The notes under the pieces were generated by a model. That model worked only from the letters and a program-made list of their open reading frames with translations, was not told where the DNA came from and made no database searches. From the IMG/VR virus record IMGVR_UViG_3300043772_000601, positions 1-30,540 of that record: a DNA stretch of 30,540 nucleotides; one strand, 5' to 3'. Shown one piece after another: positions 2,049-12,329 of the stretch. Numbering within the stretch: the first letter of the stretch is position 1; every line of letters starts with the position of its first letter. The DNA is from a virus. The translations under genes were made by a program, and so were the position numbers.

Positions 2049-2628
2049 CGCTCTCCCTCACATATTCTTGTTCAAGTCCTAACAAATCTCTTGGCCTGTC
2101 TTTTATTTTTTTAGCAGGGATTCCTGCATACACCGACCAATCATCTAAATTTTTAGATACTAAAGACATGGCTCCTACAGTGGTCCCTTCACCGACTACT
2201 ATTCCTGGTAATAAAACTGAACTAGATCCTATTAAAGAATGCTTTTTTAATGTTACCAGTCCACGTTTAACATTTTTATACTTATCTGGGATCACAGCAT
2301 TTGTTAAATACCCGCCAGAATAATCATCAGAAGCGGAATATATTTTTGTGCCGTGAGATATAGCAGAAAAATCTTCCATAATTATACCACCTGATGCAGC
2401 CAACAGACAATATCCTGCGATATGAATATTTGATCCTATGCTTAAATCCCCGCCCTCTGAGGCTGTTATAGTTGTATACGCATCTATTCTTACATTAGAC
2501 CCAATAGATATATTATGTAGTCCGATAATTGTGCAGTTTTTATCAATTAAAATATTATTTCCAATGTTTTTAAATCCTGCGTCAACCAAGTCTTTTTCTG
2601 TATAAAATCCAGAATTAAATAAATTCAT
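2041..2628 (-). CDS. Left-handed beta-helix (hexapeptide-repeat) acyltransferase
   Basis: This 195-residue protein has hexapeptide-type repeats along most of its length, for example NISIGSNVRI, LSIGSNIHIAG, IMEDFSAISHGT and IVVGEGTTVGAMS. It ends with the typical VYAGIPAKKIKDR cap of sugar O- and N-acetyltransferases (WbbJ/PerB-like). The family moves acetyl from acetyl-CoA to sugars. Lying directly after a PerA-like aminotransferase, it is a good candidate for acetylating the 4-amino group of a perosamine-type nucleotide sugar. O-acetylation of another sugar is equally compatible. The start touches the preceding stop at 2628. Confidence 0.85.
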   Translation of the reverse strand: MNLFNSGFYTEKDLVDAGFKNIGNNILIDKNCTIIGLHNISIGSNVRIDAYTTITASEGGDLSIGSNIHIAGYCLLAASGGIIMEDFSAISHGTKIYSASDDYSGGYLTNAVIPDKYKNVKRGLVTLKKHSLIGSSSVLLPGIVVGEGTTVGAMSLVSKNLDDWSVYAGIPAKKIKDRPRDLLGLEQEYVRESGV

Positions 2629-3719
2629 TAGTGGGACAACACTTTCTCTATAACATATTTAACTTCATCATCACTTAAATCTGGATAACTAGGTAGATTT
2701 AATCCTCTGCGAGAAATATCTTCTGCAACCATAAAACTCTGTTGAGTATTGTACATAGGCATTGTATGAATAGGATAGAATACTGGCCTAGTTTCTATTC
2801 TATTTGCACTTAGATAATTCATTAGATTATCACGATCTTTATATTCTGATCCCAATATACTACACATCCAATAACTGTGTCTAGTATTAGGAGCCTCACT
2901 ATGAAATTCATAACCAGTATTATAGAAACCTTCTCTGTATAAAGATGCTATTTCTAACTTCCTGTTAATTAAATAATCAGATCTTTGTAGTTGGGCGATA
3001 CCAATAGCACATGCAACATTGGTCAAACGGTAGTTATACCCTATGGCATCGTGCCAGTATTGTTTTCCTTCCGCCAAGCCCTGCCCCTTTAAATGAAAGC
3101 AAATGTCTATTAAATCCTTATTGTTTGAAACCACCATGCCGCCTTCACCAGTGGTTATTGTCTTGTTTCCAAAAAAACTAAATGTCGCTATGTCCCCAAA
3201 GGTGCCAACATGTTTATTTCTAAACATAGTCCCAAATGCTTCTGCACAATCCTCTACAAGAAATAGATTATTATCTTTACAAATTTTATTAATTAAATCT
3301 AAGTCGCATGGATGACCATATAAATGAACAGCAAGAATAGCCTTTGTTCTATCAGTAATCTTTCTAGTAATATCTTCTGGGTTCATCTGCCATGAATCAT
3401 ACAAGGAATCTACAAATACTGGTGTGGCTCCGACATACTTTATAGCATTTACTGGAGCGATATAGGTTAACGTTGGAACAATTACTTCATCTCCTGGACC
3501 AATGCCTAAACTTAATAGTGCTAAATGTAAAGCAACAGTACCATTTGAAACTGTTGTTCCATACTCCACACCAATTTTTTCTGTAAATAATTGCTCAAAC
3601 ATATCAACATTCGGGCCGCGAGAGGATATCCAGGAAGACTCTAAACATTCATTAACATATTTTTTCTCTAGTTCAGTAATGGATGGAGCGTAGACTGGAA
3701 TGTTCTTATGAATAGTCAT
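2628..3719 (-). CDS. DegT/DnrJ/EryC1 aminotransferase, GDP-perosamine-synthase-like
   Basis: This 363-residue protein is a PLP-dependent sugar aminotransferase of normal family length. The PLP-binding acidic segment is LVEDCAEAFG (about 154-163). The Schiff-base lysine is K186 in FSFFGNKTITTGEGG. The TVSNGTVALHLAL segment near 55-68 binds the cofactor phosphate. FGNKTITTGEGG is the form usual in PerA-type enzymes, which aminate GDP-4-keto-6-deoxymannose to GDP-perosamine, and Gmd encoded two genes upstream would make that substrate. A different 4-keto-sugar substrate cannot be excluded. It overlaps the fcl stop by 14 bases. Confidence 0.86.
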   Translation of the reverse strand: MTIHKNIPVYAPSITELEKKYVNECLESSWISSRGPNVDMFEQLFTEKIGVEYGTTVSNGTVALHLALLSLGIGPGDEVIVPTLTYIAPVNAIKYVGATPVFVDSLYDSWQMNPEDITRKITDRTKAILAVHLYGHPCDLDLINKICKDNNLFLVEDCAEAFGTMFRNKHVGTFGDIATFSFFGNKTITTGEGGMVVSNNKDLIDICFHLKGQGLAEGKQYWHDAIGYNYRLTNVACAIGIAQLQRSDYLINRKLEIASLYREGFYNTGYEFHSEAPNTRHSYWMCSILGSEYKDRDNLMNYLSANRIETRPVFYPIHTMPMYNTQQSFMVAEDISRRGLNLPSYPDLSDDEVKYVIEKVLSH

Positions 3720-4641
3720 TATTTTCTAAGAACCATCCGTATGTATCGTTTATCCCATTTTCTAAATCTATCGATGAAGACCACCCTAAATGATTTAACT
3801 TAGATATATCAAGTTTTCTTCGTGGAGTACCATTTGGCTTATCTTTGTCCCAAATAATATTACCGTTCCATCCAACTGTGCGAGAAATAATATCTGCCAG
3901 TTCTTTAATAGAGTATTCTTTTCCAGAGCCAATATTAATATGAGAAGAATCTTCATAATTATTCATAAGGAATATTAATGCATCTGAAAGATCATCTACA
4001 TGTAGGAATTCCCTGGTGGGACTACCGTCCCCAAACAAAGTAACTTGCTTTGAATTATTTAACAGCGCCTCATGAAATTTATAGATCATGGCTGGTATAA
4101 CATGGCACTGATTTATATTAAAATTATCATTGATTCCATATAAGTTTGCTGGCATGGCTGAAATAGCGTTAAAACCATATTGCTCTTTGTACCTTTGACA
4201 CATTTTTAGCCCTGCAATTTTTGCTAATGCATAGCCTTCATTTGTTTCTTCTAATGGTGCTGTCAATAGGTATTCTTCTTTTATTGGCTGTGGGGTAACT
4301 TTAGGATATATACACGCGGAGCCAAGGAACATAAGTTTCTTTACTTTATTTTCATATGAAGAATGGATAACGTTATTCTGTATAGCAAGATTATCATAAA
4401 TAAAGTCCGCTGGAGAACTTTGATTATATGTAATTCCTCCAACTTTTGCGGCTGCTAAAAAAACATACTCTGGTTTTTGAACAGCAAAGAATCTTTTTAC
4501 ACTCATTTGGTTACGCAAATCTAATCTAGAACGATCTGCTGTAATAATATTATGATAGCCAACCATTTTTAATCTTCTAACTAAAGAAGATCCTACTAAA
4601 CCATTATGACCTGCTACATAAATAGATGAGTTATAGTCCAT
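3706..4641 (-). CDS. fcl: GDP-L-fucose synthase (GDP-4-keto-6-deoxymannose epimerase/reductase)
   Basis: This 311-residue short-chain dehydrogenase/reductase makes GDP-L-fucose from the Gmd product using NADPH. It has the Rossmann motif GHNGLVGS (11-18), the catalytic serine in GSACIYPK (S108, with the epimerisation cysteine C110), YALAK (Y137, K141) and the catalytic histidine H180 in [23 protein letters not shown] near 62-70 is also typical. All key residues are present and length matches bacterial WcaG/Fcl. It overlaps the gmd stop by 11 bases. Confidence 0.95.
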
Positions 4642-5638
4642 TAATGCACATATCCTTTACTAGATCGTCAAAGGTGTACTCTGGGCTCCAGCCCAATTCT
4701 TTCTGTGCTTTAGAAGCATCCCCAAGAAGTCGATCTACTTCTGCTGGACGAATATATTTTTTGTCTACAACTACTACGGTTCTACCAGTTTTAGAGTCGA
4801 TTCCTATTTCATTAAATCCTTCACCCTGCCACTCAATAGACATACCAAAGTAGGGGGCACACCTTTCAACAAAGTCCTTGACTGTGTACTCTTCACCTGT
4901 AGCAATAACATAGTCGTCGGGCGAATCTTGTTGCATCATTAGCCACATCGCCCTAACAAAATCTTTGGCATGGCCCCAGTCTCTTAATGCATTTAGGTTG
5001 CCTAGTCTAAGAACATCTGCCTTACCCGACTGAATATCTCTTAGACCTAAGACGATCTTTCTGGTAACAAATGTCTCGCCTCTGCGTGGCGACTCATGGT
5101 TAAACAAAATTCCATTACAAGCAAACATATCATAGGCTTCACGATAATTCTTAGTAATCCAATAAGCATAAAGTTTTGCTACTCCATATGGAGATCTAGG
5201 GTAGAAGGGGGTAGTTTCAGACTGTGGGACCTCTTGCACTAATCCATATAATTCTGACGTAGCCGCCTGATAAAACTTTGTAACTGGATCTAAGTAGTTC
5301 ATTCTAATTCCTTCAAGCATCCTAAGTGTACCTAGGGCATCGGAATTAGCAGTAGACTCTGGTGTTTCAAACGACACCTGGACATGACTTTGAGCGCCAA
5401 GATTATAAATTTCGTCTGGCTGAATCTCACCAATTAATTTCACAGTAGATAGAGAATCTGTAAGATCTCCATAATGTAGTTTAAAGTTTGGATGGTCGTA
5501 AAGGTGATCTACTCTATGTGTATTGATAGATGATGACCTTCTTTTAATTCCATGAACAACATAATCTTTTTCTAGCAGCAACTCTGCAAGGTATGATCCG
5601 TCCTGACCAGTAATGCCAGTAATCAATGCTGTCTTCAT
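4631..5638 (-). CDS. gmd: GDP-mannose 4,6-dehydratase
   Basis: This 335-residue enzyme converts GDP-D-mannose to GDP-4-keto-6-deoxy-D-mannose, the first committed step to fucose, rhamnose and perosamine nucleotides. Visible features are the NADP-binding [12 protein letters not shown] (8-19), the family-specific [15 protein letters not shown] (31-45), the catalytic T127/E129 in AATSELYG, and Y151 xxx K155 in [12 protein letters not shown]. It looks intact and full length. GDP-mannose must come from the host, since no ManB/ManC is visible here. The ATG overlaps the upstream methyltransferase stop (ATGA). Confidence 0.96.
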
Positions 5639-6782: not shown

Positions 6783-7030
6783 TAGACACTCCTTGGCGGA
6801 TCGCCAGGAACCCCCTGAAAGTCACAAACATATCCAAATTGTTCTACTATCCCCCGCAACTTGAAGAGATGTTCCATAACAATCATTTGTTTTTCGTTTG
6901 ATAGAGCCATGATTTCATTCTCATAAACTCTTAAGGCAAGAAAATTTGGCATTTCTACAATATCAATAATGACATTATACGGAGGTTTATTTTCTTTAAG
7001 AATTTTAAAGACTAGTGGGTCATATTTCAA
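6782..7030 (-). CDS. Unknown small protein after whiB
   Basis: I do not recognise this protein. The longest frame starts at an ATG at 7075 deep inside the whiB gene. A TTG at 7030 lies 6 bases after AAGGAG and gives an 82-residue protein overlapping the whiB stop by only 11 bases, so I prefer it. The sequence looks like an alpha/beta fold: NVIIDIV and FLALRVY strands, then a long helix NEKQMIVMEHLFKLRGIV. It ends GVPGDPPRSV. Confidence 0.6.
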   Translation of the reverse strand: MKYDPLVFKILKENKPPYNVIIDIVEMPNFLALRVYENEIMALSNEKQMIVMEHLFKLRGIVEQFGYVCDFQGVPGDPPRSV

Positions 7031-7328
7031 TGTCTTCTCCTTCAGATACCAGACCAAGTATTCTAGCCCAAACATCTTGGGTCTTATGTGAATTTCTTAC
7101 ATTGTCTAGTTTACCATCATTTAGGAATACGCCGCCCCAAACACCAAAGGATTCCGTTTGAACCCCATAGTCAAAGCATTCTTTAATTACTGGACAAGAC
7201 ATACACCGTCTATCTATTTCTTTTGCTAGACCTTGATCCAACTCATATTTATCAAAATAGTCCTCAGTGTCTGTGCCTGCACATAATGCTTCAGTTACCC
7301 ACATATTTACTTGGCACTTTCCATCCAT
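7020..7328 (-). CDS. WhiB-family [4Fe-4S] transcription regulator
   Basis: The protein has all the WhiB hallmarks: four cysteines in the pattern ALC, then CMSC and C (C16, C42, C45, C51 counted from the ATG at 7328), and the turn GVWGG after the cluster. WhiB-like proteins bind an iron-sulfur cluster and pair with the sigma factor to control transcription. They are essentially confined to actinobacteria and their phages. An ATG at 7304 (MWVTEALC) is also a good start, and an ATG at 7385 is possible but overlaps the upstream gene more. In mycobacteriophage TM4 a phage WhiB interferes with host WhiB2; a similar role here is inference. Confidence 0.9.
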   Translation of the reverse strand: MDGKCQVNMWVTEALCAGTDTEDYFDKYELDQGLAKEIDRRCMSCPVIKECFDYGVQTESFGVWGGVFLNDGKLDNVRNSHKTQDVWARILGLVSEGEDIEI

Positions 7329-7509
7329 TACTACCTGGGAAGTATCTCTTGGCAACTCCCCAAGTTCCATGACGGAACATGCCATTTTTCTTATAGAAGC
7401 CGTCCTTAAGTGGCTTCCAGTCTACAATAACCCAACCGTCCCAGAATAGATTCTTGTGTGAATCTACTAACTCATGCGCGGCTTCGTAATTTACAAATGT
7501 CTGTGACAT
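7291..7509 (-). CDS. Small aromatic-rich protein, unknown
   Basis: This 72-residue protein is unrecognised. It is rich in tryptophan, lysine and glycine (LFWDGWVIVDWKPLKDG, then MFRHGTWGVAKRYFPG). It has no cysteine or membrane segment. Its ATG touches the deaminase stop at 7509, so it is translationally coupled. The order deaminase, this gene, WhiB suggests a cluster of early or host-takeover genes, but nothing in the protein shows a function. Confidence 0.65.
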   Translation of the reverse strand: MSQTFVNYEAAHELVDSHKNLFWDGWVIVDWKPLKDGFYKKNGMFRHGTWGVAKRYFPGSNGWKVPSKYVGN

Positions 7510-7865
7510 TATTCCTCACTCATTGTATAGATAACTTTTTTGATTCCATTGCTTTTAATAACTTCAAAACATCTCTTGCATGGGCGGCTATCCCTAGCCT
7601 CTCCTCTTTTATTTACCCTAGCAATATAAATAGTCGCACCATTTACATCTCTAGCCTTTTTGATAGCATCAATCTCAGCATGAACTGAACAGTGATCCTT
7701 GATATGCTCGCTAGAAACAATTCTTGGATGACTTCGTTCCTTATTCACTCCAGTAGAAATAACTCTTCCACCCTTTACAATAACAGATCCATGCTTCATT
7801 CTACACTGTGACTGTGATGCTAGATAAGACGCTACGGAAAGATATGCTTGGTCGCGCTTAGATAC
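7509..7865 (-). CDS. dCMP/cytidine deaminase-like zinc enzyme with an irregular start
   Basis: The catalytic zinc motif is HAEIDAI plus PCKRC, typical of deoxycytidylate deaminases, which make dUMP for dTTP synthesis. The first ATG in frame (7799, MKHGSVIV) has no ribosome binding site and would remove the family's N-terminal helix. That helix is encoded directly upstream in the same frame (SKRDQAYLSVASYLASQ). The open frame extends back to a stop at 7892-7890, but no ATG, GTG or TTG lies there. The coordinate given begins at a GTA 9 bases after AAAGGAG. A frameshift from the ATG at 7893 is the main alternative. The catalytic core looks intact. Confidence 0.75.
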   Translation of the reverse strand, partial: VSKRDQAYLSVASYLASQSQCRMKHGSVIVKGGRVISTGVNKERSHPRIVSSEHIKDHCSVHAEIDAIKKARDVNGATIYIARVNKRGEARDSRPCKRCFEVIKSNGIKKVIYTMSEE

Positions 7866-7893
7866 GGCGACCTGCTCCTTTGATAATCCTCAT
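7858..7893 (-). CDS. 11-codon mini-ORF at the deaminase 5' end
   Basis: An ATG at 7893 preceded by AGGAG (4-5 bases) opens an 11-codon frame (MRIIKGAGRRI) that ends at TAA 7860-7858. It is the only well-placed start between the SLOG-like gene and the deaminase. It lies one reading frame away from the deaminase N-terminal helix. It may be the true deaminase start joined by a +1 shift, a coupled leader peptide, or the mark of an indel in this copy or the assembly. Confidence 0.4.
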   Translation of the reverse strand: MRIIKGAGRRI

Positions 7894-7900
7894 GATTCTC

Positions 7901-8269
7901 CTATACCTTATAGATACTTACAGGAATATTATTATTCTCTGCCTCAGAAATTACTACATCAAAAATTTCTGAACGATCACTCTTCGTTGATAAATATACT
8001 ACACTATCTAGATCATACTTGTCAAAGTTTTCTGCAACATCATTCTTTAAAACTCGGTAGAACCTGGACTTGATTCCTTTTTGCTTAAAGAATCCTTCAG
8101 TCTTATTAACGAATTCAGCAGCGAATTGATTAATTTTATATGGACCCGCAGTATAAATCTCTAATTTATTATCTTGATTAGAAACATTTTGGTCAATGGC
8201 AACTACCACTGCTCGGGTAAAAGTATCATAATCGGAAAACTTTGTATTTCCGTAAACAAGAATTTTCAT
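7901..8269 (-). CDS. SLOG/DUF2493-like Rossmann-fold protein
   Basis: This 122-residue protein begins MKILVYGNTKFSDYDTFTRAV and continues with LEIYTAGPYKINQFAAEF and a helix ending in KGIKSRFYRV. This strand, then T/S-rich loop, helix and second strand with a glycine turn resembles the small YspA/DUF2493 branch of the SLOG nucleotide-binding superfamily. The usual GSR loop is replaced by GNT. SLOG proteins bind nucleotides or nucleotide-derived signals, and the precise ligand is unknown here. Confidence is moderate because only the fold-level pattern is visible. Confidence 0.55.
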   Translation of the reverse strand: MKILVYGNTKFSDYDTFTRAVVVAIDQNVSNQDNKLEIYTAGPYKINQFAAEFVNKTEGFFKQKGIKSRFYRVLKNDVAENFDKYDLDSVVYLSTKSDRSEIFDVVISEAENNNIPVSIYKV

Positions 8270-12167: not shown

Positions 12168-12174
12168 TTCCACG

Positions 12175-12246
12175 CTGGCATGGTAGGATTCGAACCTACA
12201 ACCTATCGGTTAACAGCCGATTGCGCTGCCGTTGCGCCACATGCCA
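12175..12246 (-). tRNA. tRNA-Asn (anticodon GTT)
   Basis: A full cloverleaf can be drawn on the minus strand. The acceptor stem is TGGCATG/CATGCCA (7 bp). The D-arm is GCGCAACGGCAGCGC. The anticodon stem-loop is ATCGG CTGTTAA CCGAT with anticodon GTT, and the T-arm contains GGTTCGAATCC. No CCA is encoded. Phage tRNAs usually supplement the host pool; asparagine codons are common in this AT-rich genome. Confidence 0.93.
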
Positions 12247-12258
12247 CTGCTTAAAACG

Positions 12259-12329
12259 CTGGAGAATCAGGGGTCGAACCTAAACTAAATGTTCCAAAGA
12301 CATTTGTGCTGCCATTACACCATTCTCCA
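12259..12329 (-). tRNA. tRNA-Gln (anticodon TTG)
   Basis: The acceptor stem is TGGAGAA/TTCTCCA and the D-arm is GTGTAATGGCAGCAC. The anticodon stem-loop is AATGT CTTTGGA ACATT, giving anticodon TTG (reads CAA), as is typical of Gln tRNAs that begin with T. The T-arm contains GGTTCGACC with one G-T pair. CCA is not encoded. It sits 12 bases from tRNA-Asn, and the two are likely processed from one transcript. Confidence 0.9.

Follow-up and report, generated by a model that had tools for sequence, protein, structure and literature searches.

Evidence for a probable programmed +1 frameshift stimulated by an internal Shine-Dalgarno-like element at the start of a phage deaminase gene

The window analyzed here, a 30,540-nucleotide (nt) stretch of viral DNA (positions 1 to 30,540 of IMG/VR record IMGVR_UViG_3300043772_000601), carries a gene for a deoxycytidine monophosphate (dCMP) deaminase that has no usual start codon. 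Judging from sequence comparison, synthesis of this deaminase very probably depends on an obligatory programmed +1 ribosomal frameshift that is stimulated by an internal Shine-Dalgarno element. The same arrangement, in which a start codon RTG (ATG or GTG) is followed by 1 to 3 codons, the heptamer AAAGGAG and the deaminase in the +1 frame, was found in 46 distinct 5' sequences from four clades, indicating a built-in recoding signal rather than a sequencing error. Comparison of these sequences demonstrates the arrangement, the translation of two frames, the confinement of the transition to a bracket of 12-15 nt and the invariance of AAAGGAG.

In the window (all window features below are on the minus strand), the ATG at 7893-7891 opens a frame of 11 codons, ATG AGG ATT ATC AAA GGA GCA GGT CGC CGT ATC TAA, that is, a mini-open reading frame (mini-ORF; MRIIKGAGRRI*, 7858-7893) ending at TAA 7860-7858. 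Its Shine-Dalgarno sequence, AGGAG (7898-7902), lies 4 nt upstream of the ATG and is present in every relative from the window's own clade. The deaminase frame is +1 relative to this ATG (frame 0) and reads TGA GGA TTA TCA AAG GAG CAG GTC GCC GTA TCT AAG CGC GAC CAA GCA TAT...; it is closed upstream by TGA 7892-7890 and contains no ATG, GTG or TTG ahead of the first helix, VSKRDQAYLSVASYLAS, the first ATG being internal, at 7799. AAAGGAG occupies 7875-7881 in the phase AAA-GGA-G and is separated by 9 nt from a GTA codon of the deaminase frame (7865-7863). These positions bear out what an earlier note had read from the window, namely a helix frame without a start codon and with a stop at its upstream end, a ribosome-binding site and ATG opening an 11-codon frame one base off, and AAAGGAG 9 bases upstream of the GTA.

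The dCMP-deaminase-like identity proposed in the same note also holds. The coding region in the +1 frame (7509-7868, AVSKRDQAYLSVASYLAS...HAE...PCxxC) matches the Pfam family dCMP_cyt_deam_1 (PF00383) with an E-value of 2.9e-14 over residues 3-115, beginning at the N-terminal helix, the HAE and PCxxC zinc motifs are invariant in the deaminase alignment, and structure comparison gives a Z score of 13.9 to the S-TIM5 dCMP deaminase. Thus, the gene is predicted to encode a phage dCMP/cytidine deaminase, with dCMP as the likely substrate by homology; relatives are labeled 'deoxycytidylate deaminase' in GenBank. In an AlphaFold2 model of the +1 frame, for which the input consisted of the window and viral-contig alignment rows only, helix 1 is formed by KRDQAYLSVASYLAS with a predicted local distance difference test (pLDDT) score >90, and the alignment of the model with solved deaminases (S-TIM5, human, S. 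mutans and T4) begins at residues 7-11 and therefore takes in helix 1. A start at ATG 7799 would remove this helix. When GGTC is read as one step, the translated product is MRIIKGAGAVSKRDQAYLSVASYLAS..., and the product of the window gene after a +1 shift would probably be MRIIKGAG-AVSKRDQAYLSVASYLAS....

The clade A relatives were gathered by a protein search of viral contigs, a DNA pattern search and, later, a profile search. The 46 distinct sequences comprise clade A, to which the window belongs (17), clade B (11), clade C (15) and clade D' (3). The 17 clade A sequences are close relatives from different metagenomes that all have the same two frames; their mini-ORFs start with ATG AGG ATT ATC AAA, GTG GCT ATC AAA or ATG CCC AAA, and these length differences in multiples of three imply that frame 0 is maintained. 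The 11 clade B sequences, from viral contigs, share the invariant ATGATGATGCCAAAAGGAGATCTTYTCTCG, followed by +1 codons that change synonymously. Clade C consists of Streptomyces phages of the Boydwoodruffvirinae (Samistivirus, Coruscantvirus and Tomasvirus), including isolate genomes, with 43-53% identity to the window protein where measured and the consensus RTG TTY AAA GGA GNN NNN NNC CGR TCT YTC TAA, with the deaminase in +1. The three clade D' contigs read ATG CCN AAA GGA GCA GGT AAG TAA or ...GGT CAG TAG. The profile search of genome contigs yielded no relative, and the clade C DNA pattern search of viral contigs gave no match. Scanning all fetched loci for RTG-AGGAG followed by a +1 frame without a start returned mainly the deaminase among the matches listed, the others being chance-like.

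This recurrence leaves practically no room for an indel introduced during sequencing or assembly, an option of the earlier note, or for a defective gene whose functional protein is made from ATG 7799: nothing beyond the single contig speaks for it, and the arrangement is seen in 46 distinct sequences from many metagenomes and isolates, with the helix codons under purifying selection. Nor do relatives start at the counterpart of ATG 7799 with a ribosome-binding site, since the helix codons upstream of it are conserved with synonymous change, and relatives with a direct start open upstream of the helix instead. The GenBank records of the deaminases from LilMartin, Peebs, Persimmon, Bmoc, Coruscant, EGole, Pepperwood, Riptide and Mildred21 place the start 36-84 nt inside the conserved region, at sites that differ between entries. 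Such scattered late starts are what is expected where annotators meet a frame without a start, and the records of the frameshift-type Streptomyces phage dCMP deaminases examined lack the first helix.

AAAGGAG, a seven-base complement of the 3' end of 16S ribosomal RNA (the anti-Shine-Dalgarno), is present in 46 of the 46 frameshift-type sequences, always in the phase AAA-GGA-G, and in none of the 45 direct-start relatives. The latter, which include Karimacvirus (Jollison, Sollertia and StarPlatinum), Daubenski and a large viral-contig group, open at an in-frame ATG (or GTG/TTG) 5' of the helix. Among sister genes of Streptomyces phages, the difference amounts to one base plus AAAGGAG (ATGGCTAACGGAGAATCG-ACCGGTCTTTCTAAG versus ATGTTTAAAGGAGAAGCTAACCGGTCTTTCTAAC), and the direct-start Karimacvirus sequence MANGESTGLSKKDRSF agrees with the expected shift product MFKGEG-TGLSNKDRSF. 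On a tree of frameshift and direct-start genes, six state changes are needed, three of them forced by well-supported branches; a single old origin followed by several losses is plausible, with the root unsure and the alignment short, and the direct-start sister genes either lost the shift or never had it.

Marine phage homologs with a short open frame upstream (L022-L053) were set aside, as these genes overlap the preceding gene and mostly start with GTG. In the marine phage deaminase group L022-L058, the GTG start lies within 'GCCGTGCAAGAGAAGAAG' (for example, L053:2940-3060), and in the L053/L054 homologs, GTA (AACGTACAAGAG) stands in place of the start GTG.

A non-standard start at GTA 7865 had been another option of the earlier note; such a start, with AAAGGAG as its Shine-Dalgarno and the ATG mini-ORF as a leader or decoy, now appears very unlikely. 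The 9-nt spacing would suit it, and in Tomasvirus a GTG in the deaminase frame follows AAAGGAG at 3 nt, but the codon at this alignment position varies (GTA, ATA or ACA in clade A; CTN in clade B; CTT or CTC in clade C), no codon of the stretch is start-like across all clades, and the synonymous change in frame 0 and the 3-nt indels before AAAGGAG would be left unexplained. A programmed +1 frameshift, the remaining option of that note, is strongly supported. Altogether, 40 of the 46 sequences have no in-frame start at all; the other six (L014, L082, L092, L101, L220 and L222) offer a TTG or GTG in frame as a potential start, which weighs against a frameshift. In the Tomasvirus sequences L220 and L222, the GTG coincides with the presumed slip site (GAG CAT GTG ACC), and it is the annotated start of Tomas gene 229; Tomasvirus is possibly a lineage changing over from frameshift to direct start.

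The pattern of substitutions delimits the transition between the frames. Frame 0 is translated up to AAA: its start codon is kept as ATG or GTG among relatives, and the substitutions before AAA are mostly synonymous in frame 0 (R as AGG/AGA/CGG, I as ATT/ATC, F as TTC/TTT, P as CCT/CCA/CCC) and not in +1 (for example, ATT ATC/ATC ATT). The helix codons, in turn, are constrained in the +1 frame, with synonymous/nonsynonymous counts of 29/19, 28/20 and 21/15 in clades A, B and C, respectively, as opposed to 4/44, 7/41 and 5/31 in frame 0. In clade B, the +1 codons CGN CTN TCN/AGY CGN vary synonymously, with CGN CTN directly after TCT; in clade D', frame 0 terminates as early as the fourth codon past GGA; and all clades have Ala, Thr or Ser as the third +1 residue past GAG, a position at which frame 0 would encode R, N, Y, G, D, F, L, K or Q. 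Given that frame-0 constraint extends to AAA and +1 constraint sets in soon after, from about the third codon after GGA, the shift would lie within AAA GGA GNN NNN (NNN), that is, 12-15 nt if one mechanism is common to all clades, or AAA GGA GCA GGT CGC (7867-7881) in the window. Most of this bracket is taken up by the invariant AAAGGAG, and the first two codons that follow GGA are uninformative as to which frame is read. In clade A, the DNA is nearly invariant from AAAGGAG to the helix; among the third positions in +1, 1 of 10 is variable as far as GAC, versus 36 of 40 beyond (Fisher p 2.6e-6). The frame transition is conserved across diverged homologs with both frames constrained as protein, the pattern by which a programmed +1 frameshift is recognized.

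An antizyme-like +1 shift at the frame-0 stop itself, located in a hairpin loop (ATC TAA, TTC TAA or AAG TAA), is improbable on these data. In its favor, clades A, C and D' do have the stop in the loop of a stem; moreover, when clades A and C are taken by themselves, the changes between AAAGGAG and the stop favor neither frame and are compatible with a shift as late as the stop. Against a stop-site shift, the +1 frame of clade B is already read several codons ahead of the frame-0 stop, the distance from AAAGGAG to the stop varies between clades, and 'TCTAAG' also occurs in the direct-start Karimacvirus as plain Ser-Lys codons.

The stem-loop in question is represented in the window by the inverted repeat GGTCGC and GCGACC around an 11-nt loop that holds the frame-0 TAA (7850-7872). 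This stem is invariant in clade A; an outer stem AAAG:CTTT was rejected because it is broken in L090, L092, L094 and L015. In clade C, the stem comprises up to 10-14 bp and carries TAA at its apex, 96.9% of the cells pair versus 35-60% in slid controls, and two pairs are changed on both sides; in clade D', GGTAAG/CTTACC versus GGTCAG/CTGACC is a compensatory change. Folding compared with shuffles gives z of -2.5 to -4.0 in clade C and a weak signal in clade A, and clade B has no stem-loop. The starts of the direct-start Karimacvirus and Daubenski deaminases (L103:576-640, L105 and L214) also retain a stem-loop of high stability, again with TAA at its apex (z -5.8 versus shuffles for L103 of Karimacvirus). 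The element is thus not specific to frameshifting and may have another role as an independent regulatory element. Bypassing through the matched GCA...GCA across the hairpin was rejected as well: GCA is not conserved in clade A (GAA in L009, TCA in L082), and the hairpin region is itself coding in +1.

Under the favored scheme, ribosomes would start at ATG 7893 and pass over one base after about 7-8 codons, AAA GGA among them. The slip would most likely coincide with the moment at which AAAGGAG, having emerged from the decoding sites, pairs with the same ribosome's anti-Shine-Dalgarno and thereby displaces the mRNA by one base, much as in prfB. Ribosomes failing to shift would terminate at TAA 7860, and in clades A, C and D', the stem-loop immediately 3' probably acts as a brake. 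From these comparisons, we infer that the shift occurs in vivo, at a particular slip codon and with a contribution of the stem-loop, and that the deaminase may be held low or regulated. Behind GGAG, the second codon after GGA is spaced by 2 nt and the third by 5 nt; a slip at the 2-nt position is most likely, and in clade B, CTT-T, the prfB slip codon, stands at exactly this position. Several observations do not fit easily: the other codons at the slip position (GGT, GCT, GAC, CAC and TGT) are no known slippery +1 codons, no stop follows the slip site directly except in D', and the spacing of 2 or 5 nt contrasts with that in prfB, where +1 shifting is stimulated mainly by an internal Shine-Dalgarno located 3 nt from the shift codon; in -1 shifting, this distance is 9-14 nt (PMC5009743).

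The main alternative is a slip on AAA itself, with tRNA-Lys moving from AAA to the overlapping +1 AAG, the stem-loop stalling the ribosome and GGAG serving otherwise; in the Streptomyces phages of the frameshift type, such a slip would give MFKEKVTGLSNR.... AAA-G allows full re-pairing in +1, the stem-loop starts 2-7 nt after GGAG in A, C and D', a plausible spot for a downstream stimulator, and over the two codons that follow, the residues encoded in +1 (Q/K/H/I and V/L/T/F) look no less conservative than those of frame 0. Because this route leaves the invariance of GGAG unexplained and clade B has no such stem-loop, we consider it possible but rather unlikely; it is a sub-model of the frameshift explanation, and the confidence placed in the two overlaps.

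The gene adjoining the deaminase (7020-7385) encodes a WhiB-like protein (PF02467, E-value 9e-12), a mark of actinobacterial phages, which together with the Streptomyces phage relatives points to a host among the Actinobacteria. Elsewhere in the window are a pair of neighboring tRNA genes, Asn(GTT) and Gln(TTG), at 12174-12329, and a run of putative sugar-nucleotide type genes at 2628-5638, by eye GDP-mannose dehydratase- and GDP-fucose synthase-like genes and a putative aminotransferase gene. The frameshift-type phages include ones that can be grown on laboratory Streptomyces, and the natural variants (four clades, different slip codons, presence or absence of the stem-loop and direct-start sisters) allow the contribution of each signal to be separated.

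Among known systems, the dCMP deaminases of cyanophage S-TIM5 and T4 belong to the same enzyme family and fold as the window deaminase; both are ordinary single-frame genes. No paper on frameshifting in a phage dCMP deaminase was found in the open-access literature, outside of which most subscription journals lie. Like the cps and tsh genes of Listeria phage PSA, the deaminase is a case of +1 programmed frameshifting in phage genes, but PSA shifts on the proline codon CCC in structural genes to yield C-terminal extensions (PMC5009743), whereas the deaminase shift is at the gene start and would be required for the enzyme itself. An internal Shine-Dalgarno is shared with the bypassing systems of T4 gene 60 and Streptomyces phage Hau3, and a hairpin with a stop codon is shared with T4 gene 60, where it adjoins the take-off site (PMC5009743). 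Unlike in bypassing, the +1 codons inside the deaminase hairpin are conserved as protein, which indicates that nothing longer than one base is skipped.

The closest parallel is prfB, which encodes release factor 2 (RF2) and is the one textbook case of Shine-Dalgarno-driven +1 shifting. Both have a short frame-0 ORF, an internal Shine-Dalgarno directly 5' of the known or proposed shift site and the main protein in +1, the shift being obligatory in prfB and probably so in the deaminase, and the clade B site, AAGGAG-AU-CUU-U, resembles the AGGGGG-UAU-CUU-UGA of RF2. Of the parts of the RF2 cassette, the internal Shine-Dalgarno is present, CUU-UGA-C 3 nt after it is not, and the gene is not that of RF2: the deaminase (PF00383) is unrelated to it in gene and product, lacks a conserved CUU or UGA-C (CTT-T occurs in clade B alone, without UGA), is spaced at 2 or 5 nt rather than 3, carries a downstream stem-loop in three clades and shows no evident autoregulation by its product. 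We tentatively propose, as a conjecture somewhat short of an even chance, that actinobacterial phages harbor a second natural class of Shine-Dalgarno-driven +1 shift without a stop or classic slippery codon, which would act as an obligatory gate on an enzyme of nucleotide metabolism, while the stem-loop that encloses the stop would serve as a regulatory switch. Such a shift would extend the principle known from prfB to an unrelated enzyme gene that has neither the conserved stop nor the slippery codon of prfB.
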